A stretch of DNA of 64,000 nucleotides from Sphaerochaeta pleomorpha str. Grapes (GTDB taxonomy: Bacteria; Spirochaetota; Spirochaetia; Sphaerochaetales; Sphaerochaetaceae): contig NC_016633.1 of the NCBI RefSeq assembly GCF_000236685.1, positions 1,488,001-1,552,000 of the forward strand, in the 5' to 3' direction. Below are positions 5,172 through 63,240 of this stretch, piece by piece. Position 1 is the stretch's first letter; each line of letters opens with the position of its first letter. The translations under genes and the position numbers were made by a program. The notes beneath the pieces were generated by a model. It did not search any database. It saw only the letters and a list, made by a program, of their open reading frames with translations, and was not told where the DNA came from.

Positions 5172-5518
5172 GAAAAAAACAATCAGCCCCAGCCACTGCC
5201 ATGACCGACATTGCCTTTCTGCTCCTGTTGTTCTTCTTGATCTTGGCCCTCTCGACACGATTGACCCCAATACCGCTCACCCCGGCTATAAGTGAGGATG
5301 CCTTAGCAGCACAGGCTGGCAATACAATTGTTATAGGACGTGACGGTTCCCTTTTCTATCAGGACAATCCGATTTCGCTCTATACAATACCCAGCGAAAC
5401 GGAAATAACCTTGTTAGCTGACAAGGACACCCCATTCAAACTCATCAGTCCGGTCCTTGAGGCTTTACAGAAAAATGGGACAACAACCATTCATTGCCTA
5501 GTGGGACAAAGCCAATGA
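5168..5518 (+). CDS. exbD: ExbD/TolR-family protein (second copy)
   Basis: 116 residues, start chosen at the ATGA overlap with the preceding exbD. MTDIAFLLLLFFLILA near the N-terminus again gives the membrane helix with its conserved Asp. The periplasmic part (NTIVIGRDGSLFYQDNPI) has the ExbD pattern of a short beta strand around a Gly-Ser turn. The two ExbD copies are only distantly alike outside the helix, so this is an old duplication; they may form a heteromeric ExbD dimer. The stop codon overlaps the start of tonB by 4 bp. Confidence 0.88.
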   Translation: MRKKQSAPATAMTDIAFLLLLFFLILALSTRLTPIPLTPAISEDALAAQAGNTIVIGRDGSLFYQDNPISLYTIPSETEITLLADKDTPFKLISPVLEALQKNGTTTIHCLVGQSQ

Positions 5519-6279: not shown

Positions 6280-7513
6280 GCAACCGCTTGGTCAGTCGCT
6301 TTAGACTGTGGAAGGTGGAGTCGGCAGAAATAAAGGCCCAGGATTTTGTTCTTTTCAGTACAAGCCCTTCCACAACCTGTTCCACCGTATAGAAATTCCC
6401 ACCGATGCGGGTATTGTCATAGGGACAGAACGCCTTGGCATAATACAACGTCTTCGTCTCCCCGTCCTTGATAGTGACCGTGGTAGGGGCACCTAACAGC
6501 GTATCATTTGGACTAAGGTTTTCGGTTCCCCTGTACAATCTATTGGTTCCCGAACCACAGTTGATTGAATACTGTTGGCTCATCCCCCCTGCATAGAAAG
6601 CCCAGGGGGGCTCAATCCTTCCCCCGTACTCAAAGAGGAAATTATTGAAATTGACAGGGATATCGTCAGGACCAAGCGCATTCGGCCCCGGAAAGAAAGT
6701 AAAGTAAATCATCTGTTGCCTGGGGTTGATCACACTCGACCAACCTAGGTTAGAGGAACGGGGGACCAAACCGGATATGAAATCGGTCTTCCCTATCGGG
6801 GAGGGAACTTCAGTCAAGTCAGCAGTCCCGCCCCCGAGCAAGGGAGCCTTTTTCCAGTCTTCAAACTGTGTGTTCGGCTGCAAGCGCGAAACAGAACCCT
6901 GAATCTGGCCAGCGGGGGAAGACACCCATGACTGGGCACAGGCATTGAGCACACACCCCGATTCAAAGAACGGAGACCCGAGTTCATTGCTCCAGGTAGC
7001 ATTCGTCACCATATCTGCACCGCTATTGTTGGTAATAATGCAGGCGGTGTAATGGACTGGCTGGTTGGGAAGCAACATATCAATCTTGCGAACCTGCCAC
7101 TTTTCCTTGCGGTTGCGCACTAGACTCATAAGCCAGACTCCCCCGAACTCAGGGTCGGTGCCATAGCGCTCGACCATCCAGTAGGCACTGGGGGTGAACC
7201 CACTCTGTCCCTGCTGTGTATTGTCTTCCTGGGAAGTGGGAGGCCCATAATTGGGGAAACTGAAATAGGAACCCGCCCTTTGATACAGATGGGGACTGTT
7301 TTTCCAGAAATCCCTGTTTTCATCGCTGAATACAGAAGTGCCGGTGCCCCGGTAGTAAGGAAGCAGATGGGCGTTGATACGCCCCCCGTTTGGGGCTACA
7401 GAACTAAGTTCAAGTTCCATACCCCCTTGGTCTTCGAGGACAACCCTGATCAAATCATTGTTCAGAACAGTAGCATTACGGCTTTCCCAAAGTCTCAGAC
7501 GCCGGATATCCAT
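6266..7513 (-). CDS. uncharacterised protein, probably a beta-sandwich sugar-active or sugar-binding protein
   Basis: 415 residues. The start at 7513 is preferred over an upstream one because AGGAG lies 7 bp before it. No signal peptide is seen, so the product is probably cytoplasmic. The start (RLRLWESRNATVLNNDLIRVVLEDQGGMELELSS) and repeated short strands with Trp, Tyr and Gly resemble the galactose-mutarotase-like superfold, but no catalytic His/Glu set could be identified with confidence. It is divergent from an alpha-galactosidase gene across a 98-bp region with a 12-bp palindrome, which suggests a shared role in galactoside use. Other possibilities are an uncharacterised glycoside-binding protein or a domain of unknown function. 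Confidence 0.7.
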   Translation of the reverse strand: MDIRRLRLWESRNATVLNNDLIRVVLEDQGGMELELSSVAPNGGRINAHLLPYYRGTGTSVFSDENRDFWKNSPHLYQRAGSYFSFPNYGPPTSQEDNTQQGQSGFTPSAYWMVERYGTDPEFGGVWLMSLVRNRKEKWQVRKIDMLLPNQPVHYTACIITNNSGADMVTNATWSNELGSPFFESGCVLNACAQSWVSSPAGQIQGSVSRLQPNTQFEDWKKAPLLGGGTADLTEVPSPIGKTDFISGLVPRSSNLGWSSVINPRQQMIYFTFFPGPNALGPDDIPVNFNNFLFEYGGRIEPPWAFYAGGMSQQYSINCGSGTNRLYRGTENLSPNDTLLGAPTTVTIKDGETKTLYYAKAFCPYDNTRIGGNFYTVEQVVEGLVLKRTKSWAFISADSTFHSLKRLTKRLLTSE

Positions 7514-7564
7514 GATTCTTCTCCTAAAATTCACAAAAAAGCGGGGTGTTTAATTCCCTTTGTC

Positions 7565-7576
7565 ACAGTATACTGT
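7565..7576. promoter_or_regulatory. 12-bp perfect palindrome between divergent genes
   Basis: ACAGTATACTGT is a perfect palindrome located between the two divergent starts (7513 and 7612). It could be an operator for both genes; the regulator is not in the window as far as can be told. Confidence 0.4.
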
Positions 7577-7611
7577 TACCAGATATCCCCTCATTTTTCA
7601 AGGAGAGCAAA

Positions 7612-9969: not shown

Positions 9970-11093
9970 AAGGACAGCAGTTCTGCAATTTCCTCAGGGG
10001 TAACGGCCTTCAGATAGTGAGAACGAAGGAAGGCCACGTTTTCGACACTGCCATAGAGCAGAGCTCCCTTGAGCTTTCCATCCTCGACGAAATACGCTTC
10101 ATACCGCCCATCCTTCAATTTATTGGTGCTTGCTCCCGAGACATCCCCCACGCTCACAATTTCCAACTTCTCATCTTTGAAACGAGTCATCAGCACGGGG
10201 GGAATATAGTCCTTTGTTTCCCCGAGCAATGTAGCCATAACGCTCTGGGCCATCCCAATGGCAACGGGAAGAATGCCTGGCACCTGTCCCTTATATTGGG
10301 CGCAGTCTCCGATTGCAAAGATATGCTCATCGCTGGTCCTCAGCTTTTCATCGACGACAATACCCCTGTCGACTTCAAGATCGGCATCCTTGGCCAAGGA
10401 AGTCTCAGCGTTCACCCCCAAGGAGAGAATAAGGGTTTTGCAGGGGATATCCTCTCTGCCTTCCACGACCAAGGCCTCGATCCGATTGTCTTGGTCGACT
10501 CGTTTGCCAGTAGCTTTTATGCATTCATTGATTACAAGGCCGTCCGACTCCAGCTGGACGCGTAACAGTTTTGAGGCCTTTGCATCAAGCTGCCTTGCAA
10601 GGATATGCGAAGCACCTTCACATACAGTGACACCATAACCTTTGCGCAGTATGGCCAAAGCAGCCTCGAGGCCAAGCAATCCACCGCCTAGTACCACCAC
10701 GGGATCTGCAAGGGTCTGGCTTATCAACAAGGCATCCTCGAGGGTTCTCAGCGTGCTGACTCCTTTCGTATTGGCAAAAGCATCGAGTACCCTTCCCCTG
10801 CTTCCGGTTGCAAGTACAAGGAAATCATAAGGGGAGGTTTCACCATCATCCAGAAGGATTTCCTGTTTCTGGCGGTCAATTTTCTTTACTGCCTTATGGA
10901 CCAGGTAGGGAGCCTCCCTCGTAGAGGGAAGTGCGCAGAGCCCCTCTTCATCACAGAGCAGCTGGGGAAGTTTAATCCTGCTGTAGAACCCATACGGTTC
11001 CTCCGTGTATAAAGTAACAGCAACACCTCGGCTGGAAAGTCTCTCAGCTACCATGGAACCTGCCACACCATTACCAATCACACATACTCGCAT
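9966..11093 (-). CDS. FAD/NAD(P)-dependent oxidoreductase (rubredoxin/NirB-type reductase fold)
   Basis: 375 residues. An N-terminal FAD-binding motif (CVIGNGVAGSMVAE, residues 4-17), an ATGS turn near residue 95, an NAD(P)-binding motif (VVVLGGGLLGLEAA, near 132-145) and the second FAD motif (IFAIGDCAQY, near 258) are all in family order. No CxxC redox pair is present, so it is not a thioredoxin-reductase or lipoamide-type enzyme. It fits the group of rubredoxin reductases, NADH oxidases and NirB N-terminal domains that pass electrons from NAD(P)H to small iron proteins or oxygen. The partner is not obvious from the neighbours. Role in oxygen or NO defence is a guess. Confidence 0.85.
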   Translation of the reverse strand: MRVCVIGNGVAGSMVAERLSSRGVAVTLYTEEPYGFYSRIKLPQLLCDEEGLCALPSTREAPYLVHKAVKKIDRQKQEILLDDGETSPYDFLVLATGSRGRVLDAFANTKGVSTLRTLEDALLISQTLADPVVVLGGGLLGLEAALAILRKGYGVTVCEGASHILARQLDAKASKLLRVQLESDGLVINECIKATGKRVDQDNRIEALVVEGREDIPCKTLILSLGVNAETSLAKDADLEVDRGIVVDEKLRTSDEHIFAIGDCAQYKGQVPGILPVAIGMAQSVMATLLGETKDYIPPVLMTRFKDEKLEIVSVGDVSGASTNKLKDGRYEAYFVEDGKLKGALLYGSVENVAFLRSHYLKAVTPEEIAELLSF

Positions 11094-11184
11094 AGTTTCC
11101 TCTCCCTTACAAAACTATAGCACAAACAGTACCCTGTCCACTGCCAAATTAAGATACTTGCCCCAATCTCCTGCGAGCTGTATT

Positions 11185-11679
11185 ATGGCGATCATGGAAC
11201 AAATCGTTATATATATCGAAGAGAACGCCCAAGGCAATACGCTCTATCAGCGCTATCTAAGCGAATGCCAGGCTATCAGGAAAACCGTGTTCATCGAAGG
11301 ACAGGACGTTGCCCCCGAGATAGACCTGGACGGCCTTGATACCTCGTGTGCCCATCTGCTTTTGCTCCTGGGTGAAAAACCGGCGGCGACACTGAGGATA
11401 CGCAAAACCGCCGAAGGAACAAAACTTGAACGGGTAGCGGTTTTGCAAGAGTTCCGAGGTCACAACTATGGCAAACTCCTTGTCCAGTGCGCACTCGCTC
11501 TCAGTGAACCTCCTGTATATATCCATGCCCAGGTACCAAGTGAAGGGTTCTACAAGAATCTGGGCTTCACCGTGGAAGACCCAACGATTTTCTATGAAGC
11601 AAACATCCCCCACAGAACCATGTTCTGGCCAAACCATATAAAAGGAAAAACACAGTGCAACATCATAAGACTATCGTAA
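11185..11679 (+). CDS. GNAT-family N-acetyltransferase
   Basis: About 164 residues. The start is uncertain: ATG at 11185 or 11194, with no strong RBS; codons upstream of 11185 do not look like part of the protein. The acetyl-CoA loop is visible as ERVAVLQEFRGHNYGKLLVQ (V-x-x-x-x-R-G-x-x-x-G-x-x-L), followed by the strand VYIHAQ and the FYKNLGF motif near the end. This layout fits the ElaA/YjcF-like acyltransferases. The substrate is unknown. It overlaps the following gpsA by 25 bp, so the two are probably co-translated. Confidence 0.82.
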   Translation: MAIMEQIVIYIEENAQGNTLYQRYLSECQAIRKTVFIEGQDVAPEIDLDGLDTSCAHLLLLLGEKPAATLRIRKTAEGTKLERVAVLQEFRGHNYGKLLVQCALALSEPPVYIHAQVPSEGFYKNLGFTVEDPTIFYEANIPHRTMFWPNHIKGKTQCNIIRLS

Positions 11680-26733: not shown

Positions 26734-27729
26734 ATGCAACAGTATAAAAAACGAAAATTAAGTATTGACCAACAAATTGCCCATATGAGAGAAACAAAAG
26801 GAATAAAATTCAGCGTATCTACAGAAGACGATGCAAAAGATTTTTTACAAACGAGCAATTACTATTTCAGAGTCAAGTCTTATGCCAAGAATTATGATAA
26901 ATTTCAAGCCCCCCCACGTGAAGGTAAATATATTAATCTGGATTTTGCATATCTAAAAGAATTGTCAATAATAGATATGCATTTCAAAGATATAATCCAT
27001 AGAATCCTTGAAGCAATAGAACATTTTGCGAAGTTGCAAATAGTAAATGATTTGGAGAACAATCCAAGTGAAGACGGTTATAATATAGTTAGACTTTTCT
27101 TTGAAAATGACCTAATGATAAATGAAAACAGAATCTTGAATACAATTTCGAAACACAAAAATAGTTACTGTGGTAATTTGATCAATAAATATTGTCCATC
27201 ATATAACCCTTCACCAAATGACCAAGCGTTTGCTTTATGGAATGTAGAGGAAGTACTATCCTTCGGAGATTTTATCAAACTATTCGAATTCTATTATACA
27301 AAGTATCCAAGCCAAACATTTGATATTAAAAAAACCAGAAGTCTGCTCTGGTCAGCAAGAATGCTTCGTAATGCGGTAGCCCATGACAACTGTTTGCTTA
27401 ATAGCGTCCGGACTGGTTATGCTAATAACAATTTTAAAATTAACCTGTATCTAAATACCTATATTCAGAAAAATATAAAAACAATTTCTCAACAAACTCG
27501 TAGTTCAAAATTATCAAATCCCGTAATTCATGATTTTGTTGCATCCTTGATTCTGTTTGATGAAATAGTAACAAGCAGAGAAATAAAAAAATCAAGAATC
27601 GATGAGTTATCTTCTTTTATTAATACAAGATGCAGAAACCACAAAGAGTATTTTGAAAAAAATTCATATCTAAGCTCAACCTATCAGTTCATAAAGAAAA
27701 TCGTTGACTATTATGCCAGCGTTATATAA
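26734..27729 (+). CDS. AbiD/AbiF-like (Abi_2 family) HEPN protein, probable abortive-infection toxin
   Basis: 331 residues. The order of motifs fits the Abi_2 family: LSIDQQIAHMRETKG near the start, FLQTSNYYFRVKSY (residues 30-45), an AFALWNVEEVLSFGDFIKLFEFY segment near 165-190, and LRNAVAHDNCLLN. The last holds R212-N-A-V-A-H217, an R-x4-H HEPN motif, the RNase centre of this class. Members act in phage defence as abortive-infection RNases. The gene is visibly more AT-rich than its neighbours, with many AAA/AAT/ATA codons, and stands alone between two terminators, which suggests horizontal gain. A possible RNA partner lies downstream on the other strand. Confidence 0.85.
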   Translation: MQQYKKRKLSIDQQIAHMRETKGIKFSVSTEDDAKDFLQTSNYYFRVKSYAKNYDKFQAPPREGKYINLDFAYLKELSIIDMHFKDIIHRILEAIEHFAKLQIVNDLENNPSEDGYNIVRLFFENDLMINENRILNTISKHKNSYCGNLINKYCPSYNPSPNDQAFALWNVEEVLSFGDFIKLFEFYYTKYPSQTFDIKKTRSLLWSARMLRNAVAHDNCLLNSVRTGYANNNFKINLYLNTYIQKNIKTISQQTRSSKLSNPVIHDFVASLILFDEIVTSREIKKSRIDELSSFINTRCRNHKEYFEKNSYLSSTYQFIKKIVDYYASVI

Positions 27730-51099: not shown

Positions 51100-52269
51100 T
51101 TAGGCAAAAGACTTTGAGTAAATCTTGAGACAATCCTCATCGGACAATACTACAGGATCGACAGCAAAAAGACCGCCCATGTTGGCTCTGGCATTTGCAA
51201 CCATAGGAAGCAACTCTTGCTGTGTAATCTGGTAGTCTGACATTTTAAGCGAGTCAACCTGACAGGCTTTCTGCAATTCGACAAGAGCCTGCACAAAATC
51301 CATAGGATCCTTTGCATCGGTCTTTCCCATTGCCTTGGCCATATCAACCATTCGCTGGTCACAGGCATGAACCGAAGCCATGTGGGTATAGTATTCACGG
51401 CTAATCATGATCAGGCCTGCCCCATGGGGAAGATTTGGATGATAAGCACTCATTGCATGTTCGAGAGAATGTTCAGAGATACAACCCGAGGTCGACTCTA
51501 CCATACCAGCTAGGGTATTTCCCAGGGCCACATCTTCCCTTGCCTTAAGGTTGCTACCATCTTTCACTGCGGTTTCAAGACTCCGGGCAATAACCTTGAT
51601 AGCCTCGAGGCTATAAAGGTCGCTGAGTGTATTCGCTGTATTGTTGATATACCCCTCTGTGCTGTGGAACAAGGCATCAAAGCCCTGGTAGGCAGTCAGA
51701 TGGGGAGGAACCGTAACCATGAGTTCTGGGTCTACGATGCTTAACACAGGGAAGGTCCCGAGGTAGCCCGAACCAATTTTCTCGTTGGTCTCTTCTTTGG
51801 TGATTACCAGCCAAGGATCGGCTTCTGTACCGGTTCCTGCAGTCGTAGTGATTGCCACGATGGGAAGAGGCCAGGTTGGGATAGCTTTTTGGCCTCCACT
51901 GCCACCACCGATATAATCCCAGAATTCACCTTCATTGGTAGCCATGATTGCAATGGCTTTCGCTGAGTCAATCGTGGAACCACCACCCAGGCCGATTACA
52001 AAATCACAGCCGTGCTCTTTGGCAAAGGCTGCTCCTTCGCTCACATGTCTTCTTACTGGATTGGGTAGGATTTTGTCGAACACGACAGATGCCACCTTGG
52101 CTTTTTTAAGTTCGTCTTCCACTCTCTGTAAATATCCGTTGGCCCGGGTCGATTTACCGGAAGAAATAACGATCAGGGCTTTCTTTCCAGGCAGGTCCTG
52201 TTCATGCAGGTGATTAAGTTGACCAATGCCAAAAAGAACCTTCGTTGGAATGTGATATGTAAATGTCAT
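51100..52269 (-). CDS. iron-containing alcohol dehydrogenase
   Basis: 389 residues from the ATG at 52269, which follows GGAGG by 6 bp. NAD-binding motif GLGGGSTIDSAKA (near residues 94-106), TTAGTGTEAD, DPELMVTVP, then the metal site: DALFHSTEGYI with Asp and His, SEHSLEHAMSAYHPNLPHGAGL with three His. This is the Fe-ADH family (lactaldehyde reductase, 1,3-propanediol and butanol dehydrogenases). The substrate is unknown; the sugar-acid context of the next operon makes an aldehyde from sugar cleavage plausible. Confidence 0.9.
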   Translation of the reverse strand: MTFTYHIPTKVLFGIGQLNHLHEQDLPGKKALIVISSGKSTRANGYLQRVEDELKKAKVASVVFDKILPNPVRRHVSEGAAFAKEHGCDFVIGLGGGSTIDSAKAIAIMATNEGEFWDYIGGGSGGQKAIPTWPLPIVAITTTAGTGTEADPWLVITKEETNEKIGSGYLGTFPVLSIVDPELMVTVPPHLTAYQGFDALFHSTEGYINNTANTLSDLYSLEAIKVIARSLETAVKDGSNLKAREDVALGNTLAGMVESTSGCISEHSLEHAMSAYHPNLPHGAGLIMISREYYTHMASVHACDQRMVDMAKAMGKTDAKDPMDFVQALVELQKACQVDSLKMSDYQITQQELLPMVANARANMGGLFAVDPVVLSDEDCLKIYSKSFA

Positions 52270-52334
52270 CGTTGCCTCCAATTTTTAATACCTATTGCTA
52301 ATATAGGGATTTATAGGCTATTAGGCAAATAAAA

Positions 52335-52378
52335 ACAGTACAGGCTGCCACACCGAAAGGTGCAACAGCCTGTTTCCT
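52335..52378 (-). terminator. terminator of the first dctPQM operon
   Basis: On the minus strand ACAGGCTG pairs with CAGCCTGT around an inner hairpin (GCACC/GGTGT), then TACTGTTTTTATT. The same element, almost base for base, lies at 58543-58585. Confidence 0.8.
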
Positions 52379-52397
52379 ATTTACATACGATGAAGGG

Positions 52398-53693
52398 TCA
52401 AGCCATCAGCGAAGGCAGGAACATGGTAACCTGCGGAACGAAGGTGACCAGCATCAGATCGGCAACCATCATCAGGTAGAAAGGCAGAACTGCCTTGGTA
52501 GCCTTCTCGATGGATATCTTGCCGATTGAGCAACCTACGAACAGCGCCGAGCCTACCGGGGGAGTCGTGAGACCGATGGCCAGGTTGAGAATCATCATGA
52601 TGCCGAACTGCACGGGGTCCATGCCCAGGTGCCCTACGATTACCGGGTAGAGGATCGGGGTGCAGATGATGATCAGCGGTGCCATATCCATGATACACCC
52701 GAGGACCAGCAGCATGAGGTTGATCATCAACAGCAAAAGAATCCTGTTGTCGGTTATCGTGAGCAGCCCGTTGGTAACTGACTGGGGGATGCGCAAAAAC
52801 GCCATCAGGTACCCGAACGAACTTGCAGCGGCAATGAGGCTCATTACCATAGCCAAGGTCTTCAGGGAGTTGCGCAGAATCGATTTCATCTGCCTAAGCG
52901 GAATCTCCTTGTAGACGAAGAAGGTTATGAGGAACGAATACACTGCGGCAACAGCTGCCGACTCGGTCGCGGTGAACACGCCGGAGACAACCCCGCCCAT
53001 GATTATGATGATCGTGAACAGGCCCATAACCGCCTCGCGGGCGATTTTAAGCGTTTTCCTCCAGCCGTAGGGCTTTTCCTTGGGGTATTTCCTCAGGTAG
53101 GCGATGATTCCTGTCGGGATCATCAGCAGAAGGCCGAGCCCCACACCGGGGATGACCCCGCCGAGGAACAGCTTCCCCACCGATACCCCGCCTCCGGCTG
53201 CCATTGCAAAGATAATCATGTTGTGGCTCGGCGGGATGAGGATTCCCTCGCAGGCACTGGTGACCGTAACGGCAACGGCAAAATCCTCGTCGTATCCGTC
53301 GTCGACCATCATGGGGATGAGCATGGCACCGATTGACGATACATCAGCTACTGCAGACCCAGAGATGCCACCGAAGAACATCGAGGCAAGGATGTTTACC
53401 TGGGCCAGACCACCACGGAAACGTCCGATGAGGGCATTGGCGAACCCGACGAGCCTGCGGGAGATACCGCCCTGGCTCATGATCTCGCCTGAGAGGATGA
53501 AAAACGGGATTGCAAGCAGGGAGAAGGAGTTTACTCCGCTTACCAGCCTCTGCACGATGGACATCATCGGGATATGCAAGAACATAGCCGTGAACACCGA
53601 GGAGAGGAAGAGGGAGAAGGTGATGGGGAACTTCATGATGAGCATGAAAACAAATGAACCGAGGAGAATGAATGAAGCCATACTTGTATTCAT
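52398..53693 (-). CDS. dctM: TRAP transporter large permease subunit DctM (copy 1)
   Basis: 431 residues from the ATG at 53693; GGGAGG lies 9 bp upstream and the stop of dctQ overlaps the start. About twelve membrane helices. Landmarks: MASMFFGGISGSAVADVSSIGAMLIP (near residue 100), IPPSHNMIIFAMAAGG, and a C-terminal MMILNLAIGLTTPPVGSALFVGCSIGKI. This subunit forms the Na+-coupled translocation path. The copy at 58605-59900 differs at only two residues (Lys/Gln and Arg/Lys near position 210). Confidence 0.93.
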   Translation of the reverse strand: MNTSMASFILLGSFVFMLIMKFPITFSLFLSSVFTAMFLHIPMMSIVQRLVSGVNSFSLLAIPFFILSGEIMSQGGISRRLVGFANALIGRFRGGLAQVNILASMFFGGISGSAVADVSSIGAMLIPMMVDDGYDEDFAVAVTVTSACEGILIPPSHNMIIFAMAAGGGVSVGKLFLGGVIPGVGLGLLLMIPTGIIAYLRKYPKEKPYGWRKTLKIAREAVMGLFTIIIIMGGVVSGVFTATESAAVAAVYSFLITFFVYKEIPLRQMKSILRNSLKTLAMVMSLIAAASSFGYLMAFLRIPQSVTNGLLTITDNRILLLLMINLMLLVLGCIMDMAPLIIICTPILYPVIVGHLGMDPVQFGIMMILNLAIGLTTPPVGSALFVGCSIGKISIEKATKAVLPFYLMMVADLMLVTFVPQVTMFLPSLMA

Positions 53694-54181
53694 CTGGAAT
53701 CGCCTCCCTTGAACTTGCAAAAGTCTTCATATACGTGGATAAGGGAATAGGCAACGATGAATACTCCCGAGACAGGCAGGACCAGATAGTTCACCGCATT
53801 GGATATATGGGTGGCAGGAAGGAACGACTTGGCGCCATTCACTGTCAGCTTCCAGCCGTAGTAGAACATGATGACCCCTATCAGGATTTCAAGGACATCC
53901 TTTGCTGTGTCGAGGGTAAGGAAAAATTTCACGGGCAATTTTTTTGGCAATATGGATACGTTGATGTGGAGGTTCTCCTTGACGCCGAGGGCCATGGCGA
54001 TAAACGTAAACCAGATGACGATAACCAGGGAAATCTCTTCGGACCAATGGATTCCAGATTTGAACCCGTATCGCAGTACGACATTGAAAAATACGATGAC
54101 AACCATCGCAAGCAACAACACCATGGCCAGTTTGAGAACCCAATCAAATACGGAGTCAAGAATCTTCTTGAACTGCTCCAT
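53690..54181 (-). CDS. dctQ: TRAP transporter small permease subunit DctQ (copy 1)
   Basis: 163 residues, four membrane helices. MVVIVFFNVVLRYGFKSGIHWSEEISLVIVIWFTFIAMALGVKENLHINV carries the RYxF...WSEE pattern of DctQ. It overlaps dctM by 4 bp. The protein is identical to the copy at 59897-60388. Confidence 0.92.
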   Translation of the reverse strand: MEQFKKILDSVFDWVLKLAMVLLLAMVVIVFFNVVLRYGFKSGIHWSEEISLVIVIWFTFIAMALGVKENLHINVSILPKKLPVKFFLTLDTAKDVLEILIGVIMFYYGWKLTVNGAKSFLPATHISNAVNYLVLPVSGVFIVAYSLIHVYEDFCKFKGGDSR

Positions 54182-54211
54182 GGGATACCTCCAAAAGGAT
54201 ATATATCAAAA

Positions 54212-54240
54212 AGCGTGGGGTTCCAAAGGAAACCCCACAT
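54212..54240 (-). terminator. attenuator-like hairpin between dctP and dctQ (copy 1)
   Basis: On the minus strand GTGGGGTT pairs with AACCCCAC across a short loop, then GCTTTTTGATA. It follows the binding-protein gene inside the operon. An identical copy is at 60419-60447. Confidence 0.75.
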
Positions 54241-54262
54241 CCAGACTAGTTCATGATGAACC

Positions 54263-55267
54263 TTATTTTACAGCCTTGATCTTTTCAACCCAAATACGAC
54301 CTTGCTCATCGAGCTGATCTTGGTATAGGGGGGCCATTGCAGCTGCAAACTCAGCCTGGTCGTTGATCGTGTTGATCTGGCAACCGGCAGCGCGGACCTT
54401 TGCCTCTGAGGTCTTCTCAAATTCAGCCCAAGCTGCAATCTCAACAGCCTGAGAATCCATGGCAGCCTTCTTGATGAGGGCCTGGTCGTCGGTTGAGAGC
54501 TTATCCATATTAATTTTGGAAGCAACAATCATCTCAGGGACCCTGGTGTGCTGGTCGATCGAGTAGAACTTTGCCACCTCAAAATGGGCTGAAGTCGCAT
54601 ACGAGGGCCAATTGTTCTCGGCACCGTCGATAACACCGGTCTGCAATGCACTGTATACATCGCCATAGGCCAATGCTGTAGGAACTGCACCGAGAGATTT
54701 GATCATACCCATCATCAAAGAAGATTCCTGAACACGGATCTTCATGCCCTTGAGGTCGGCAACAGTGTAGATCGGTTTTTTGGTGTTGTAGAAGGAACGT
54801 GATCCAGCATCAACATATACCAAACCTAAAAAACCATCTTTCTCAACAGATTTAAGAAAATATTCACCGATTTCACCATTCAGAACATTCCAATAATGAT
54901 TAGCATCCCTGTAGAGATATGGCATCTGCAGGATATCAAGTTCAGGGCTAAAGGAAGCAAGAGGACTAATCGAAGTTCTAGTAAAGTCAATTCCACCAAA
55001 CTGAAGTTGTTCGATAACAGACTTTGCATCACCAAGCTGGGCACTAGGATACACCTCAATAGTAATTCGGCCGTTGGTCCTTTCCTTCACCAAGCGAGCA
55101 AATTCCTTGCATCCAACAACAGTTGGATAACCATCAGGCTGATTATCAGCAAGTCGCATGGTAATATTCTTCTGCACAGGTGCTTTTTCTTCCTGAGATC
55201 CGTTCGCAAACATAGGAACCATTGCCAGTGAAAGGACAAATAAACAAATCATAACCTTTTTTAACAT
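54263..55267 (-). CDS. dctP: TRAP transporter substrate-binding protein DctP (copy 1)
   Basis: 334 residues from the ATG at 55267, GAGAGA just upstream. Signal peptide 1-21 (LFVLSLAMVPMFA). The mature part is DctP-type: ITMRLADNQPDGYPTVVGCKEFARLV, ITIEVYPSAQLGDAKSVIEQLQFGGIDFTR, SRSFYNTKKPIYTVADLKGMKIRVQESSLMM, and GVIDGAENNWPSY with the ligand-binding Arg and Asn region. It is roughly 70-75% identical to the copy at 60470-61468, with identical DNA only in blocks. Likely ligand: a sugar acid or other C5-C6 carboxylate, given iolB and the epimerase upstream. Confidence 0.92.
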   Translation of the reverse strand: MLKKVMICLFVLSLAMVPMFANGSQEEKAPVQKNITMRLADNQPDGYPTVVGCKEFARLVKERTNGRITIEVYPSAQLGDAKSVIEQLQFGGIDFTRTSISPLASFSPELDILQMPYLYRDANHYWNVLNGEIGEYFLKSVEKDGFLGLVYVDAGSRSFYNTKKPIYTVADLKGMKIRVQESSLMMGMIKSLGAVPTALAYGDVYSALQTGVIDGAENNWPSYATSAHFEVAKFYSIDQHTRVPEMIVASKINMDKLSTDDQALIKKAAMDSQAVEIAAWAEFEKTSEAKVRAAGCQINTINDQAEFAAAMAPLYQDQLDEQGRIWVEKIKAVK

Positions 55268-55356
55268 TCTCTCTCTCCATTTTGATTTTTCCGAACCAGT
55301 TATAGAATAATGCCAGGGCGCCACAAAAGTGGCACCCAGTCCTCGCCCCCATCGAA

Positions 55357-56043
55357 TTAAATCTTACCAGAATGCGCTTCTTCCATTTCTTCTTTGAATT
55401 TCCTGCATGCTAAAAGCAACGATTCCTGTTGCTTGAATATGGTAAAGTTTCCAGTAACATAGACCTCAACGCCCAACCGTGCACATTCTCTTGCATGGGA
55501 ATAATCGATACCACCATCTACAGAAATTAAGAAATCCAATCCTCTTGCTTCTCGCAACAGGACCAACTCTTCGATTCTTTGCATACTACCTGACATAAAT
55601 CTTTGTCCGGCGTAGCCAGGTTCAACGGTCATCACCACCACGTAGTCGACATAATCAAGCACAGGGATTACAGATGAAATGCTTTGGCTTGGATTGATTA
55701 CTACCCCACCTTTCATCCCATTTTGGTGTATCAGGTCTAAAACCCTGCGACTAAAAGGGGTAGAATCCAGATGAAAACTTATATAGTCAGCTCGGTTTTC
55801 CTTGAGTTGGGGTATATACGCAATCGGATCAGTAACCATTAGATGTACATCAGCTTTAATCTCTGGATAATTTTCCTTCAGCTCCCCAACCAATTTGACC
55901 GGAAAACAAAGATTCGGGACATAATGACCATCCATGATATCGATATGAAACCAAGAAGCGCCTCCCTCTACAAGCTCATTGACTTGCCTTCCAAATTCTA
56001 AAAATTGACAGTTTGCCAACGAAGGTGAATTAATTATGGCCAT
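55357..56043 (-). CDS. rpe: ribulose-phosphate 3-epimerase-family protein
   Basis: 228 residues, usual size. Metal and catalytic motifs: HIDIMDGHYVPN (Asp near residue 36, general acid/base), ADVHLMV (His), VVMTVEPGYAGQRF and ISVDGGI with the second catalytic Asp. The first residues (SPSLANCQFLEFGRQ) match the family. It may be a true ribulose-5-phosphate epimerase or a relative acting on allulose-6-phosphate or another ketose phosphate; the catabolic operon makes the latter plausible. 5 bp separate it from the iolB gene. Confidence 0.88.
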   Translation of the reverse strand: MAIINSPSLANCQFLEFGRQVNELVEGGASWFHIDIMDGHYVPNLCFPVKLVGELKENYPEIKADVHLMVTDPIAYIPQLKENRADYISFHLDSTPFSRRVLDLIHQNGMKGGVVINPSQSISSVIPVLDYVDYVVVMTVEPGYAGQRFMSGSMQRIEELVLLREARGLDFLISVDGGIDYSHARECARLGVEVYVTGNFTIFKQQESLLLACRKFKEEMEEAHSGKI

Positions 56044-56048
56044 GCATT

Positions 56049-56798
56049 CTACTCCAAACGATCACCATAGATTTGCTGTGTATGCAAATCCATGAAATTT
56101 CTATCTTCAGCGGTTTTTGAAACCATGCAATAAATATACCTAAGACCAGTTTTGGGACAGCCGACATTCGGGTGATATCCAGAGGGAATAGAGATAACAT
56201 GACCTTCTTGAACCATTACAACAGAATCCTTCTGACCCATCTCGTCATAAACACATTGCAAGCCAAAACCGTCTTCCATATTGAAATAACAGTAGGTTTC
56301 TTCCCTTTTTTCACCATGTTCATGGGGAGGCCAGGCTGTCCAACCACCAAGATTTCCAAAACAAATTCCAACTAGAAACCGACTTGAATCAAATTTTTCA
56401 TCTATACAATTCCAAACATCACGTTCTGTTCCACCACATGCTTTGCCATATCGGTTATGGCGACTATCTGCATCAACATCAGTAAACAAGATTGATGAGA
56501 ATGAGGTTTTTCGAGAACAAGAAGCGCCGAATCTCATTACTACGGCATTTTCTGCAGCTAATAGAAGGGAATCATCAATAGGAAGATATAGAATATCGCA
56601 GAGTTGGACATTTCCCGTTTCATGTTGATGTTGATAGAACACATCTCCCTTGATAACCACAAGACAAAGTTCCTCGCTACCACTTTCTACAGAAATTTGA
56701 CCCTTAATCTCAAGTCTTTGGACACTTGTATATTCAAGTCCGAGGTTACAGGGTTCCTGTTTTGTAAGTACTTCCTGAGGTAATAAATGATGTAACAA
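56049..56798 (-). CDS. iolB: 5-deoxy-glucuronate isomerase-like protein (IolB)
   Basis: 249 residues. The double cupin layout of the IolB/KduI family: LGLEYTSVQRLEI at the start, LCDILYLPIDDSLLLAAENAVVMRFGA, then GGWTAWPPHEHGEKREETYCYFNMEDGFG, which holds the His-x-His...Glu metal ligands, and SIPSGYHPNVGCPKTGLRYIY with the last His. IolB isomerises 5-deoxy-glucuronate in inositol breakdown. No other iol genes are here, so the true substrate could be another uronate-like compound brought in by the TRAP system. Confidence 0.88.
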   Translation of the reverse strand: MLHHLLPQEVLTKQEPCNLGLEYTSVQRLEIKGQISVESGSEELCLVVIKGDVFYQHQHETGNVQLCDILYLPIDDSLLLAAENAVVMRFGASCSRKTSFSSILFTDVDADSRHNRYGKACGGTERDVWNCIDEKFDSSRFLVGICFGNLGGWTAWPPHEHGEKREETYCYFNMEDGFGLQCVYDEMGQKDSVVMVQEGHVISIPSGYHPNVGCPKTGLRYIYCMVSKTAEDRNFMDLHTQQIYGDRLE

Positions 56799-56847
56799 TG
56801 TATGAACTCCTTATATGATTAATAGAAAGATTTTGTTTTTGGATGCC

Positions 56848-57177
56848 CTAAAAATGAAACAGAAAAATCTTAAGCTTTGCTTCCCCGGTCTTTCGTATTG
56901 CATGGACCGTATGTGCTGGAACTATCATCGAGAAACCTGCTGAAATTGCAAATTCTTCATCGGCCACGATCATGCTTCCCGTACCCTCAAGCACAAAGAA
57001 TCCTTCGTTATCCTCGTGGATACCAAAGGGTAGAAATTCAGTGTTCTGAAATTCATTGACCATTGCTGAAAAACCTGTGATAGGAGAATTTTCTTCATCG
57101 AATACTATCTGGCTTATAGCGCCAGGAAAATTTTTAATCACCTTTGGTTCTCTATTCATCACATAACATTTTTTCAT
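56848..57177 (-). CDS. small cupin-domain protein
   Basis: 109 residues forming one cupin barrel: FGIHEDNEGFFVLEGTGSMIVADEEFAISAGFSMIVPAHTVHAI, with His, Glu and the late His as likely metal ligands. Single-domain cupins often bind sugar acids or act as isomerases or sensors. It is the first gene of the leftward operon, opposite the LacI gene; 49 bp separate it from iolB. Confidence 0.85.
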   Translation of the reverse strand: MKKCYVMNREPKVIKNFPGAISQIVFDEENSPITGFSAMVNEFQNTEFLPFGIHEDNEGFFVLEGTGSMIVADEEFAISAGFSMIVPAHTVHAIRKTGEAKLKIFLFHF

Positions 57178-57276
57178 TACAAAACTCCCCCGGCTCAGGA
57201 TAGCTCCTCATTAGAGTCACTTAGAAAGCCTCATTGGAGCCAATATACCATTGATCAAATCAAAGCGCAAGAAAAA

Positions 57277-57360
57277 TAATAACCGTTTACCCTTATTTTT
57301 TATTACTTATTTAAGCTTTTTTTATATTTTCTTTACTTTTATAGTAATCGTTTACCCTTT
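57277..57360. promoter_or_regulatory. twin LacI-type operators between cupin and lacI genes
   Basis: AATAACCGTTTACCCTTA (57277-57294) and AGTAATCGTTTACCCTTT (57343-57360) share 13 or more bases and the LacI-family half-palindrome around a central CG (TAAxCGTTTA). Their centres are 65 bp apart, about six helical turns, fit for looping. The tract between them is T/A-rich. Confidence 0.7.
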
Positions 57361-57424
57361 CCAATAAATTTATTCCAACTTTTCCAATATTCTGATACTA
57401 TCAGTTTGTAAGGAATAAACCCAA

Positions 57425-58465
57425 ATGCGATCCACACTCAATGATATTGCCCAAAAGGCAAATGTTTCAAAAGTCACAGTCCATAAAGCTCTTCATGGGA
57501 AACCAGGAGTCAGTAAAGAAACCCGTAATCGAATTTTGAAAATTGTTAGTGAAATGGATTATTCCATCAACCCAATGGCTTCATCTCTGAAGAGAGAAAC
57601 TTTGAAAATCGCATTGGTATACCCAGAACTAGAACCAGAGATGAATTTCTTTTTCAGGCAAATCAAGCAGGGAGTTGATGATGCCGAAAGAAAATTACTC
57701 GACTTCAATGTATCATTATTACGATATACCTGTGGTGAAACTTGGGAACAACAAGCTGAAATCCTCAAGCAGATAGCAAAAGAAAATCTGGTTGATGGCG
57801 TCGTAATCTATTGCTGGAATGATAAAGCCCTTAACCCGTATTTCGAAAATCTCGACAAACTCAATATACCTGTAGTGACTTTTCATTCGGATGCTATTAA
57901 TTCTTGCAGAATTGCTTCTGTTACCGCTCCTGATGAGAAGACTGGCAATCTAGCTGCTGAATTTATGAGTCAAATAGAGCCAGATTCTGGACATATCCTT
58001 TTACTGAGTGGAAATACAACGCAAAAGGTTCTTCGTGACAATTCTCTTGGCTTCCATGCATATCTTCATGAGAATCGTCCAGATTTGAAAATAATTGAAA
58101 TCGAGAATTTCCAAACCCTGGAAAATCTTTCCGAAACGATTCCGAAGCTAATGGAAGTTTTTGGAGATATAAAAGGAATTTATTGTACAAATGCTCGAAA
58201 CAGCATTTCTCTCTGTACAATTATTGAAAACCTACACTTAACAAATATTAAAATCATCACTACCGACGTATTCCAAGAACTGAAGCCTTACATAGACAAC
58301 GGAATTGTCAACGGGACAATCTGGCAAGACCCGATGCACCAAGCCTATGATGCAATTATGCTTATGTTTGATTTCCTAACAGCGCACCCTTTCACAAAAG
58401 GAGTGCTTACTGAGGTAAAAATTGGAATAGTAATGAAAAACAATTTTGATTGCTTCCTTACTTGA
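57425..58465 (+). CDS. LacI-family transcriptional regulator
   Basis: 346 residues. HTH and hinge: TLNDIAQKANVSKVTVHKALHGKPGVSKETRNRILKIVSEMDYSINPMASSLKRE. The rest is a periplasmic-binding-protein-like sensor domain (IALVYPELEPEMNFFFRQIKQGVDDAE, GVVIYCWN, HILLLSGN). An AAGGAA site lies upstream. It is divergent from the cupin-iolB-rpe-dctPQM operon and probably represses it through the twin operators. Its ligand is likely the imported sugar acid or a product. Confidence 0.93.
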   Translation: MRSTLNDIAQKANVSKVTVHKALHGKPGVSKETRNRILKIVSEMDYSINPMASSLKRETLKIALVYPELEPEMNFFFRQIKQGVDDAERKLLDFNVSLLRYTCGETWEQQAEILKQIAKENLVDGVVIYCWNDKALNPYFENLDKLNIPVVTFHSDAINSCRIASVTAPDEKTGNLAAEFMSQIEPDSGHILLLSGNTTQKVLRDNSLGFHAYLHENRPDLKIIEIENFQTLENLSETIPKLMEVFGDIKGIYCTNARNSISLCTIIENLHLTNIKIITTDVFQELKPYIDNGIVNGTIWQDPMHQAYDAIMLMFDFLTAHPFTKGVLTEVKIGIVMKNNFDCFLT

Positions 58466-58542
58466 TCTGACTAATTGCGAAGCAAGGTTTCATTCTCAAC
58501 CATTCTATATGATTTTCTGAAACAACTGCTGAAAAACAAAAA

Positions 58543-58585
58543 CAGTACAGGCTGTCACACCGAAAGGTGCAACAGCCTGTTTCCT
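58543..58585 (-). terminator. terminator of the second dctPQM operon
   Basis: Same nested hairpin as at 52335-52378, with one base change in the outer stem (C to T, giving a G-T pair). Confidence 0.8.
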
Positions 58586-58604
58586 ATTTACATACGATGA
58601 AGAG

Positions 58605-59900
58605 TCAAGCCATCAGCGAAGGCAGGAACATGGTAACCTGCGGAACGAAGGTGACCAGCATCAGATCGGCAACCATCATCAGGTAGAAAGGCAGAACTGC
58701 CTTGGTAGCCTTCTCGATGGATATCTTGCCGATTGAGCAACCTACGAACAGCGCCGAGCCTACCGGGGGAGTCGTGAGACCGATGGCCAGGTTGAGAATC
58801 ATCATGATACCGAACTGCACGGGGTCCATGCCCAGGTGCCCTACGATTACCGGATAGAGAATCGGGGTACAGATGATGATCAGCGGTGCCATATCCATGA
58901 TACACCCGAGGACCAGCAGCATGAGGTTGATCATCAACAGCAAAAGAATCCTGTTGTCGGTTATCGTGAGCAGCCCGTTGGTAACTGACTGGGGGATGCG
59001 CAAAAACGCCATCAGGTACCCGAACGAACTTGCAGCGGCAATGAGGCTCATTACCATAGCCAAGGTCTTCAGGGAGTTGCGCAGAATCGATTTCATCTGC
59101 CTAAGCGGAATCTCCTTGTAGACGAAGAAGGTTATGAGGAACGAATACACTGCGGCAACAGCTGCCGACTCGGTCGCGGTGAACACGCCGGAGACGACCC
59201 CACCCATGATTATGATGATCGTGAACAGGCCCATAACCGCCTCACGGGCGATTTTAAGCGTTTTCTTCCAGCCGTAGGGCTGTTCCTTGGGATACTTTCT
59301 CAAATAGGCGATGATTCCTGTCGGGATCATCAGCAGAAGGCCGAGCCCCACACCGGGGATGACTCCGCCGAGGAACAGCTTCCCTACAGATACGCCGCCT
59401 CCGGCTGCCATTGCAAAGATAATCATGTTGTGGCTCGGGGGAATGAGGATTCCCTCGCAGGCACTGGTGACCGTAACGGCAACGGCAAAATCCTCGTCAT
59501 ATCCGTCGTCGACCATCATGGGGATGAGCATGGCACCGATTGACGATACATCAGCTACTGCAGACCCAGAGATGCCACCGAAGAACATCGAGGCAAGGAT
59601 GTTTACCTGGGCCAGACCACCACGGAAACGTCCGATGAGGGCATTGGCGAACCCGACGAGCCTACGGGAGATACCGCCCTGGCTCATGATCTCGCCTGAG
59701 AGGATGAAAAACGGGATTGCAAGCAGGGAGAAGGAGTTTACTCCGCTTACCAGCCTCTGCACGATGGACATCATCGGGATATGCAAGAACATAGCCGTGA
59801 ACACCGAGGAGAGGAAGAGGGAGAAGGTGATGGGGAACTTCATGATGAGCATGAAAACAAATGAACCGAGGAGAATGAATGAAGCCATACTTGTATTCAT
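58605..59900 (-). CDS. dctM: TRAP transporter large permease subunit DctM (copy 2)
   Basis: 431 residues; differs from copy 1 only at two positions (PKEQPYGWKK here, PKEKPYGWRK there). Same start arrangement (ATG at 59900 overlapping the dctQ stop). It belongs to the operon headed by the dctP at 61468, next to a two-component system. Confidence 0.93.
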   Translation of the reverse strand: MNTSMASFILLGSFVFMLIMKFPITFSLFLSSVFTAMFLHIPMMSIVQRLVSGVNSFSLLAIPFFILSGEIMSQGGISRRLVGFANALIGRFRGGLAQVNILASMFFGGISGSAVADVSSIGAMLIPMMVDDGYDEDFAVAVTVTSACEGILIPPSHNMIIFAMAAGGGVSVGKLFLGGVIPGVGLGLLLMIPTGIIAYLRKYPKEQPYGWKKTLKIAREAVMGLFTIIIIMGGVVSGVFTATESAAVAAVYSFLITFFVYKEIPLRQMKSILRNSLKTLAMVMSLIAAASSFGYLMAFLRIPQSVTNGLLTITDNRILLLLMINLMLLVLGCIMDMAPLIIICTPILYPVIVGHLGMDPVQFGIMMILNLAIGLTTPPVGSALFVGCSIGKISIEKATKAVLPFYLMMVADLMLVTFVPQVTMFLPSLMA

Positions 59901-60388
59901 CTGGAATCGCCTCCCTTGAACTTGCAAAAGTCTTCATATACGTGGATAAGGGAATAGGCAACGATGAATACTCCCGAGACAGGCAGGACCAGATAGTTCA
60001 CCGCATTGGATATATGGGTGGCAGGAAGGAACGACTTGGCGCCATTCACTGTCAGCTTCCAGCCGTAGTAGAACATGATGACCCCTATCAGGATTTCAAG
60101 GACATCCTTTGCTGTGTCGAGGGTAAGGAAAAATTTCACGGGCAATTTTTTTGGCAATATGGATACGTTGATGTGGAGGTTCTCCTTGACGCCGAGGGCC
60201 ATGGCGATAAACGTAAACCAGATGACGATAACCAGGGAAATCTCTTCGGACCAATGGATTCCAGATTTGAACCCGTATCGCAGTACGACATTGAAAAATA
60301 CGATGACAACCATCGCAAGCAACAACACCATGGCCAGTTTGAGAACCCAATCAAATACGGAGTCAAGAATCTTCTTGAACTGCTCCAT
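59897..60388 (-). CDS. dctQ: TRAP transporter small permease subunit DctQ (copy 2)
   Basis: 163 residues, identical in protein sequence to copy 1, with four membrane helices and the RYGF...WSEE pattern. It starts 81 bp after the dctP stop, past the attenuator-like hairpin. Confidence 0.92.
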   Translation of the reverse strand: MEQFKKILDSVFDWVLKLAMVLLLAMVVIVFFNVVLRYGFKSGIHWSEEISLVIVIWFTFIAMALGVKENLHINVSILPKKLPVKFFLTLDTAKDVLEILIGVIMFYYGWKLTVNGAKSFLPATHISNAVNYLVLPVSGVFIVAYSLIHVYEDFCKFKGGDSR

Positions 60389-60418
60389 GGGATACCTCCA
60401 AAAGGATATATATCAAAA

Positions 60419-60447
60419 AGCGTGGGGTTCCAAAGGAAACCCCACAT
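60419..60447 (-). terminator. attenuator-like hairpin between dctP and dctQ (copy 2)
   Basis: Same hairpin and T-run as at 54212-54240. Confidence 0.75.
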
Positions 60448-60469
60448 CCAGTCTAGTTCGTGAAGAACC

Positions 60470-61468
60470 TTATTTTACAGCCTTGATCTTGGCTACCCAT
60501 GCCTGCTGGTCAGCATTGAGCTGGCTCTGATACAGGGGGGCCATGGCAGCTGCAAACTCAGCCTGGTCGTTGATCGTGTTGATCTGGCAACCGGCAGCGC
60601 GGACTTTTGCCTCGGACTTTTTCTCGTACTCGGCCCATGCGGCTACTTCAACAGCCTGGGACTCTTTGGCAGCCTTCTTGATGAGGGCCTGGTCGTCAGC
60701 AGAGAGCTTGTCCATGGAAATCTTGGAAGCAATGATCATCTCAGGGACCCTGGTGTGCTGGTCGATCGAGTAGAACTTTGCAACTTCGTAGTGTGAGGAA
60801 GAATCGTAGGAAGGCCAGTTGTTTTCAGCACCGTCGATAACGCCGGTCTGCAATGCACTGTATACATCACCATAGGACATCGGGGTAGGAACAGCACCGA
60901 GAGCCTGTACAAGACCCATCATCAATGCAGATTCCTGAACACGGATCTTCATGCCCTTGAGGTCGGCAACCGTGTAGATCGGTTTTTTGGTGTTGTAGAA
61001 GGAACGAGCACCTGAATCGTAATATACGAGACCGACAAAACCCTTGTCACTCATTGAATCGAGGAAATACTGACCAATTTCGCCATTGAGTACTTTCCAC
61101 ATGTGATCAGCGTCCCTGTAGAGGTACGGCATCTGCAGTGCGTTGAGCAAGGGCTGGAAAGAAGCAAGGGGGGAAATGGAGACACGGGTGAAGTCGATGC
61201 CACCGAACTGAACCTGCTCGATTGCGCTCTTCTCGTCAGCGAGCTGAGCCTGGGGATATACTTCTACCTTGATACGACCATTGGAATATTCACCGACAAG
61301 ACGGGCAAAGGCTTCGTCACCGAGAACGGTAGGATAGCCAAGAGGCTGGTTATCAGCCAAGCGGAGAACGACCTGCTTGGGAGCAGCAGTACCCTCAGAT
61401 TGACCGGCTGCAAAAACCGGTGCAACGAGAAGGGAAAGTAACATTACAGCTAACAGAACTTTTTTCAT
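60470..61468 (-). CDS. dctP: TRAP transporter substrate-binding protein DctP (copy 2)
   Basis: 332 residues. Signal peptide 1-20 (VMLLSLLVAPVFAAG). DctP motifs as in copy 1: VVLRLADNQPLGYPTVLGDEAFARLV, VYPQAQLADEKSAIEQVQFGGIDFTR, YNTKKPIYTVADLKGMKIRVQESALMMG and DGAENNWPSY. Changes relative to copy 1 lie mainly in the N-terminal lobe and in the helix after LLNALQMPYLYRDADHM, so the ligand may differ. RBS AAGGAGG lies 6 bp before the ATG. It is divergent from the sensor kinase, which probably controls it. Confidence 0.92.
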   Translation of the reverse strand: MKKVLLAVMLLSLLVAPVFAAGQSEGTAAPKQVVLRLADNQPLGYPTVLGDEAFARLVGEYSNGRIKVEVYPQAQLADEKSAIEQVQFGGIDFTRVSISPLASFQPLLNALQMPYLYRDADHMWKVLNGEIGQYFLDSMSDKGFVGLVYYDSGARSFYNTKKPIYTVADLKGMKIRVQESALMMGLVQALGAVPTPMSYGDVYSALQTGVIDGAENNWPSYDSSSHYEVAKFYSIDQHTRVPEMIIASKISMDKLSADDQALIKKAAKESQAVEVAAWAEYEKKSEAKVRAAGCQINTINDQAEFAAAMAPLYQSQLNADQQAWVAKIKAVK

Positions 61469-61737
61469 GAGTTCCTCCTTAAGGAACGAGATATTGGATT
61501 TATGAATAGTATGGGGGATGCTTTTTGCTATTTGAAGCCAGAAAAAAAGGATAATTTGCCCAATTTTCTTCCTATTGTACTACTGTATTTAGCAAAACCC
61601 GGTCATACGATAGCCAATACAAAAAAGGCCCTTTCCTAATAGATGCTACTGTTTTCTATGGGTTTCTTATCAGACATGCATTGCATATTTGCCTTACATC
61701 CCCTTATCCTTGCAAAGCCGTGTTATACTTACATGAA
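61469..61737. promoter_or_regulatory. divergent control region of dctP copy 2 and the kinase
   Basis: For dctP (minus strand) a weak promoter TTCAAA, 17-bp spacer, CATACT lies at about 61516-61544. For the kinase a TTATACT hexamer is at 61722-61728 without a matching -35. No gene is seen here. Confidence 0.35.
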
Positions 61738-63240
61738 ATGAAAGCTGTGGAAAAACCAATAAAGAAAAAACAACCAGGAACGCTGAGAAGCTGGTTGCTT
61801 TCCTATAACCTGGCAATGCTGTGTGTAATTCTGATATTCGTCATCATCCTTTTCAGTTCAATATTCTCGCTTCTTGGGAATATGCAAAGCAGGACAAACC
61901 AATATCAGGCAATAAATGTCCTGACAACCCAGCTTATTGAAAGCAGAGACCTGTATCATAGGTATGGGAATGCCCCTGACAAGCAGTCACGTGAAGAAAT
62001 CCTCTCTGACTATACGATACTCAACAGGGAAATTGCCATTTCCCTCCAGCGCCTGAAAGTTTCCTATGAGGAAAACCCCAAGCTCTATTTCCTATATAAA
62101 GGCATCGACAACGGACTCGATTTCATCAAGCTTTCGCTCGACCAGATGGAAGGCCTCGACCCTAACACACAGACAAAAGAATACTTCAGCATCTATTATT
62201 CAGGAGACAAGGTTTATCCCTACCTACAGGATTATGCTTTCAACAAGTATTTGTCCTATGAAGTTGAGGCCGATGCCACCTGGATGGCAGAAGCCCAGAG
62301 CAGGGTTTCACAGTATCGAACGTTTTCGGTTTTCCTATTCGTCATCATCGCCCTGAGTTACAGCCTTCTCGTGTACAAGATGACCATGCGGCTGGTACGG
62401 CCGGTCAACACCATGGTAGAGACCGCAGACCAAATCTATCACGGTAATTTCGACGGTCCCCCCATTCCCCTTGACGGGCCGGAAGAACTGATCTATCTGG
62501 AACAGAACCTGAACCAGATGAAGCAAAGCCTGCGAGAACGCCTTGATATGATCGAACAGAATGCCCAGTTGGAGAAACTGGTCCATTCGCAGGAGCTCGA
62601 GCAGATGAGAACAACCAGAGAGTTGGAAAAAGCTCGTTACAAGGCCTTGCAGTCACAGATTAATCCTCATTTCTTGTTCAACACACTCAATATCATAAGC
62701 AGGACCGCCCTCTTTGAGGATGCAAATTCCACAGTCGACCTGATAGACAGCCTAGCCTCCATCTTCCGCTATACCCTTGAGTACCATGACGATGTATTGC
62801 TAAAAGATGAATTGGAATTTGTCAGACAATATCTGACCATCCAACAATTCCGATTCGGCGAGCGGCTGGAATTTTCCATTGATTGTCCGCTGGAATTCAA
62901 TGACGTCAAGATTCCACCGTTAGTCATCCAGCCATTTGTAGAGAACGCTATGGTGCATGGGCTTGAACCAAAAGAGGAAGGCGGGAAAATTGAGGTAGCT
63001 GTCAAGAAGGAAGGGAGACGGCTGGTTATCTCCATTATCGACACCGGGGTGGGAATAGACTTGGCAAAACTGAATCTGCCAAAACCGAACGGAAAGCAAC
63101 ATATCGGGGTGAAGAATATCGGAGACCGTCTGAAACTCTACTATAAAGGAAAAGCAAACCTTGCAATTTCGCGAGTAAGTGAGGAAGGGGGCACTTCGGT
63201 AACGATTACCCTACCATATAGGATAAGGAGGGAAGCCTGA
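61738..63240 (+). CDS. sensor histidine kinase, YesM/LytS type
   Basis: 500 residues from the ATG at 61738; a TTG start at 61681 is possible, and no clear RBS is seen for either. TM1 at about residues 21-46, an extracytoplasmic region of ~150 residues without a known domain, TM2 at about 195-218, a HAMP segment (VRPVNTMVETADQIYHGNFDG), a coiled stretch, then the His_kinase domain: LQSQINPHFLFNTLNIISR with phospho-His311, and a HATPase domain with NPFVENAMVHG-like QPFVENAMVHGLEP and DTGVGID. It is next to a YesN-type regulator and a TRAP operon, whose ligand it probably senses. Confidence 0.92.
   Translation: MKAVEKPIKKKQPGTLRSWLLSYNLAMLCVILIFVIILFSSIFSLLGNMQSRTNQYQAINVLTTQLIESRDLYHRYGNAPDKQSREEILSDYTILNREIAISLQRLKVSYEENPKLYFLYKGIDNGLDFIKLSLDQMEGLDPNTQTKEYFSIYYSGDKVYPYLQDYAFNKYLSYEVEADATWMAEAQSRVSQYRTFSVFLFVIIALSYSLLVYKMTMRLVRPVNTMVETADQIYHGNFDGPPIPLDGPEELIYLEQNLNQMKQSLRERLDMIEQNAQLEKLVHSQELEQMRTTRELEKARYKALQSQINPHFLFNTLNIISRTALFEDANSTVDLIDSLASIFRYTLEYHDDVLLKDELEFVRQYLTIQQFRFGERLEFSIDCPLEFNDVKIPPLVIQPFVENAMVHGLEPKEEGGKIEVAVKKEGRRLVISIIDTGVGIDLAKLNLPKPNGKQHIGVKNIGDRLKLYYKGKANLAISRVSEEGGTSVTITLPYRIRREA

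Follow-up and report, generated by a model that had tools for sequence, protein, structure and literature searches.

In Sphaerochaeta pleomorpha str. Grapes, two neighbouring TRAP transporter loci carry nearly identical dctQM genes next to diverged dctP genes, and we report here that this layout derives from one ancestral operon into which an AT-rich block has been inserted, a feature that was missed when the repeat was originally predicted. The analysis covered a window of 64,000 nt (positions 1488001-1552000 of the genome) and demonstrates a mosaic divergence profile between the two copies, the ancestral gene order and the AT-rich block between the repeats (Table 1). A foreign catabolic cassette probably joined the native TRAP operon by homologous recombination, with dctQM homogenised later.

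Table 1. Features of the duplicated TRAP locus, in window coordinates
Feature	Position	Strand	Remarks
Fe-containing alcohol dehydrogenase (Fe-ADH)	51100..52281	-	PF00465; ancestral 3' neighbour, directly downstream of the single dctM in several relatives
Intrinsic terminator at the 3' limit of the duplicated segment	52331..52397	-	Stem 52373-52340, 15 pairs; similarity of copies ends at T-tract
dctM, copy A	52398..53720	-	PF06808, E 2.6e-120
Difference-rich dctM patch	52989..53292	-	17 of 27 copy differences; dS about 0.2
dctQ, copy A	53690..54181	-	PF04290; same as copy B, 0 differences
dctP/dctQ intergenic hairpin	54214..54239	-	Identical in both copies; also in relatives
dctP_A, 3' part (middle step)	54245..54799	-	16% from copy B by segmentation; native-like GC3
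dctP_A, 5' part	54800..55267	-	About 39% from copy B; third positions AT-rich; ATG at 55267 the likely start
Ribulose-/allulose-phosphate 3-epimerase family gene (rpe)	55357..56043	-	PF00834; best NCBIfam hits below equivalog cut-offs
KduI/IolB family isomerase-like gene (iolB-like)	56049..56798	-	PF04962; in 1 of 393 Spirochaetota genomes
Small cupin protein	56848..57177	-	PF07883
LacI-type regulator	57425..58465	+	PF00356, PF13407; divergent from the cupin-iolB-rpe-dctP_A-dctQM operon
Copy B of segment: terminator, dctM, dctQ, end of dctP_B	58538..60490	-	Gap-free alignment
dctM, copy B	58605..59927	-	Within copy B segment
dctQ, copy B	59897..60388	-	Within copy B segment
dctP_B	60470..61468	-	Orthologue of relatives' single dctP; 82-90% amino acid identity in genus
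Sensor histidine kinase	61681..63240	+	PF06580; ancestral divergent neighbour of dctP

The three TRAP subunits are encoded in one operon and match PF03480, PF04290 and PF06808 well above the cut-offs. The predicted gap-free match of about 1.96 kb at an offset of 6207 was confirmed: positions 52331-54283 align with 58538-60490 with 27 differences over 1953 bp. The further claims that dctQ is identical and that DctM differs at two residues were also correct, there being no DNA differences in dctQ (163 aa) and 2 changes among the 440 residues of DctM. The shared segment is limited on one side at 52331, where the T-tract of the intrinsic terminator located 3' of dctM ends, and on the other at 54283, inside the last codons of dctP. 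The longest run free of differences extends for 787 bp (permutation p = 0.00015), and 17 of the 27 differences are clustered within 305 bp, a concentration reached in none of 20,000 permutations. A foreign source of this dctM patch was considered but not supported, as within the patch neither copy is closer than the other to relatives. The differences that could be polarised are divided 9 versus 11 and indicate no clear donor.

Several other features of the segment and the window were recorded. At 19 of the differing sites a G or C in copy A is matched by an A or T in copy B, with the reverse at 4 sites (p 0.003), perhaps reflecting an AT-rich source of the 3' end of copy B. The hairpin between dctP and dctQ (54214-54239 and 60421-60446) recurs in every relative examined, though its sequence varies, and probably sets the ratio of the binding protein to the membrane parts. 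No Rfam family was found at 48-64 kb, and no tRNA gene in the 64,000 nt. Elsewhere in the window there are an AT-rich (31% GC) Abi_2 family gene at 26734-27726, likely a phage-defence gene, and a purine-related cluster at 28019-49003 with a gene for a xanthine-dehydrogenase-like protein, a purine nucleoside permease family gene, amidohydrolases, a Bmp-type ABC transporter and BtpA.

The two DctP proteins, expected to be only about 70-75% alike, are 75% identical overall, and this identity is uneven, rising from about 64% in the N-terminal half to 84% in the C-terminal half. The dctP_A gene, too, is a mosaic, its break lying near 54800, which had not been noticed before. A change-point fit resolved three steps of divergence between the copies, namely 1.3% in dctQM, 16% in the 3' half of dctP and 38.7% in its 5' half, with clear breaks at 54245 and 54800, and pS between the copies is 0.06 in dctM, 0 in dctQ, and 0.43 and 0.80 in the two halves of dctP. 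The three parts of the unit were thus separated, or were homogenised, at three different times. At 54800 the GC3 of dctP_A drops from about 0.5-0.65 to 0.23-0.38 (0.57 for the 3' half and 0.33 for the 5' half), so that the compositional switch coincides with the divergence break. In the 3' half, the distance between the copies is close to that between the nearest species (pS 0.43 between A and B, 0.50 between B and relative G006), and the C-half DNA tree joins A and B as sisters with support 91/97. The 5' half of dctP_A is about equally distant from all relatives (54-65% nucleotide identity), a search of 392 other Spirochaetota genomes gave nothing close to its N-half (67% at best), and in the best N-half tree A falls outside the clade of B. 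DctP_A is nevertheless a spirochaete-type protein; a clostridial origin was tried and rejected, as clostridial DctPs are no closer to DctP_A than to DctP_B.

Relatives that keep the flanking genes possess a single dctPQM in the order dctP-dctQ-dctM-Fe-ADH with a divergent histidine kinase gene. Both flanks are retained in three genomes (G006, G003 and G008), the kinase alone in two (G007 and G009), and in G002 Fe-ADH follows dctM. The proposal to look for the same pair in related strains accordingly met with single copies in these genomes, and with a tandem dctPQM pair in another genus of the family. In S. pleomorpha the kinase adjoins dctP_B and Fe-ADH adjoins dctM_A; since the two flanks lie on different copies, the old operon has been opened by a 6.2-kb insertion that ends in the second dctQM. 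Recombination between the direct repeats could restore the ancestral gene order exactly, with loss of one repeat, and the excised circle, if lost, would be the complete cupin-iolB-rpe-dctP_A-dctQM operon with its divergent LacI gene; a junction left by such a deletion was not observed. As a separate observation, the dctP orthologue of G003 (7043-8035 on the Sphaerochaeta halotolerans contig L090) is interrupted by a stop at codon 21, either in the signal peptide or immediately behind it, which may be a matter of start assignment or sequencing.

The inserted LacI-cupin-iolB-rpe cassette combines atypical composition (GC3 0.28-0.38, versus a window mean of 0.50 with sd 0.10) with patchy distribution, both being marks of horizontal acquisition; none of the 392 other Spirochaetota genomes sampled yielded its iolB-like gene. 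Judged by sequence, the block resembles a clostridial gene cluster, a likeness missing from the original prediction. In five Clostridia loci the LacI, dctQ, dctM, iolB, rpe and dctP genes are clustered, with a cupin gene in four. The cupin-rpiB-dctQM-iolB-rpe-dctP cluster with divergent LacI (L150, L156, L162) has gene families and LacI orientation in common with S. pleomorpha, with protein identities of 54-59% for IolB-like, 50-53% for Rpe and 44-46% for LacI. The clostridial gene order is different, the S. pleomorpha locus lacks rpiB and its dctQM and dctP are spirochaetal; the clostridial DctP and DctQM are not the source of its genes. A search centred on the clostridial class recovered the iolB gene in the starting genome only, and TRAP and IolB matches on plasmids were weak and ordinary.

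In the history that we infer, the ancestral operon dctP-dctQ-dctM-Fe-ADH, with its divergent kinase gene, would have undergone duplication and been interrupted by an AT-rich catabolic cassette comprising the LacI-regulated cupin-iolB-rpe genes and a divergent dctP, or at least its 5' half. The cassette would have been joined or integrated through homologous recombination within dctP-dctQ-dctM. The layout would fit a single crossover with a circle that bore LacI and the divergent cupin-iolB-rpe-dctP_A-dctQM genes, or alternatively a tandem duplication whose two copies were then separated by insertion of the cassette; both the circular intermediate and the order of events are deduced from the present arrangement. 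A single crossover alone cannot make dctQM identical, so a second process is required, and later gene conversion or an equivalent exchange would have rendered the dctQM copies nearly identical. An older exchange may have reached the 3' half of dctP, and none would have reached its 5' half.

Recombination, whether gene conversion or an equivalent, is the best reading of the dctQM identity. The suggested comparison of synonymous sites gave a clear outcome, as silent sites of dctM differ by 6% between the copies and by 56-58% from the nearest relatives (pS 0.06 versus 0.58 for G006 and 0.56 for G008), and dctQ is 100% identical between the copies versus 71-77% in same-genus relatives. Silent divergence is far below that expected for the age of the paralogues, and in part of the unit only, as homogenisation predicts. 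In the dctM tree A and B are sisters (100/100) well inside the genus, and among named relatives those nearest in DctM belong to Sphaerochaeta. The conservation of DctM, and the changes in DctP_A at otherwise invariant sites, would suit an old duplication in which purifying selection kept dctQM identical while dctP diversified. Silent sites, however, are free to change between species, so the dctQM identity is not due to constraint, and this explanation, which we regard as having almost no chance of being true, is refuted by the contrast between dctM pS of 0.56-0.58 among species and 0-0.06 in the dctM and dctQ copies. The original argument against a duplication of equal age holds in that the three-step profile and the contrast with relatives exclude such a duplication unless recombination also took place. 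Of the two readings then offered, recombinational homogenisation stood, and selection for a common membrane part is neither shown nor needed, because a separate case in the same family homogenises dctP and stops inside dctM.

A recent duplication only, in which the native dctQM was copied once behind the divergent dctP of the cassette without conversion between older paralogues, would give near-identity of dctQM and a divergent 5' dctP in one step, and a recent tandem dctPQM duplication is known in another genus of the family. We consider it unlikely, as it leaves the 16% middle step of dctP and the dctM patch with 17 of the 27 differences unaccounted for and would need at least one further exchange. 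A near-identical direct repeat of 1.95 kb is a classic assembly hazard, and the second dctQM or the position of the cassette might have arisen by misassembly across it; the genome is, however, one closed 3.59-Mb contig with exactly two dctQM copies (the next best match being 68% over 315 bp), 27 sites differ, and the distinct flanks are coherent with the ancestral neighbours on both sides, which makes an artefact highly improbable. A local duplication followed by rapid evolution of dctP_A stays formally compatible with the data, as the N-half tree does not significantly reject A and B as sisters (AU p about 0.19).

The separate case is found at locus L210, where two tandem dctPQM units (4949-8096 and 8393-11540) are 97.6% identical over 3.1 kb; in this draft genome of another genus nearly all differences fall in the 3' part of dctM, so that dctP, dctQ and the 5' part of dctM scarcely differ. 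This independent duplication suggests a homogenisation of tandem TRAP genes that was not aimed at dctQM. In two other relatives (L209 and L211) a single dctQM is accompanied by two dctP genes, which lie around or before it. The S. pleomorpha locus shares with known gene conversion of bacterial tandem paralogues the direct repeats, the near-zero silent divergence in part of the unit and the sharp breaks to diverged flanks, and differs in that the homogenised part comprises membrane subunits and a terminator beside an older break inside dctP. Within the literature searched, no paper described gene conversion at TRAP loci. In ABC systems, a single membrane unit can be served by several binding proteins. 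Such an arrangement has also been suggested for IctPQM/DctP (PMC12599236). S. pleomorpha likewise has two DctPs with practically one DctQM sequence; unlike in those systems, each DctP has its own dctQM gene pair.

The nearest solved relatives of both DctPs are 4x8r, 4n8y and 4mhf, which belong to a DctP group that includes glucuronate and galacturonate binders, with ligands reported for 4MHF/Bpro_3107 (PMC7660916). The DctP, DctQ and DctM Pfam families are common to S. pleomorpha and this hexuronate-binding group (STM3169, Bpro_3107), and the glucuronate-binding Asn-Gln, two Arg and Asn (PMC7660916) appear conserved by motif in both DctP_A and DctP_B. In the Q-L-x-D-E-K motif the Glu common to all 11 aligned relatives is replaced by Ala in DctP_A, which is changed at further conserved sites as well; the lost Glu is probably the Glu74 glucuronate contact of STM3169 (PMC7660916). 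It is plausible that the two DctPs serve different ligands and that DctP_A binds a different sugar acid, a reading taken from sequence, as the structure model of DctP_A (pLDDT 43) was set aside. The IolB/KduI-like and epimerase enzymes would fit catabolism of sugar acids or sugar phosphates.

The locus does not represent a new kind of system; it illustrates a known process clearly, and its cassette history is instructive. The editing of gene copies is unusually clear, though precedented. A more general proposal, that dctQM from the dctP stop to the terminator is a module kept identical by repeated conversion and fitted to cassettes with their own regulation and binding proteins, the repeats giving reversible gain and precise loss, is doubtful at present, and we hold it for speculation. 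The favoured history of cassette capture would have one locus showing how a new catabolic cassette and a binding protein are attached to an existing transporter: the native operon would meet foreign DNA by homology, and the membrane part would be kept uniform by recombination, with binding proteins that differ. The locus offers a testable system for asking whether a single DctQM may serve two DctPs.
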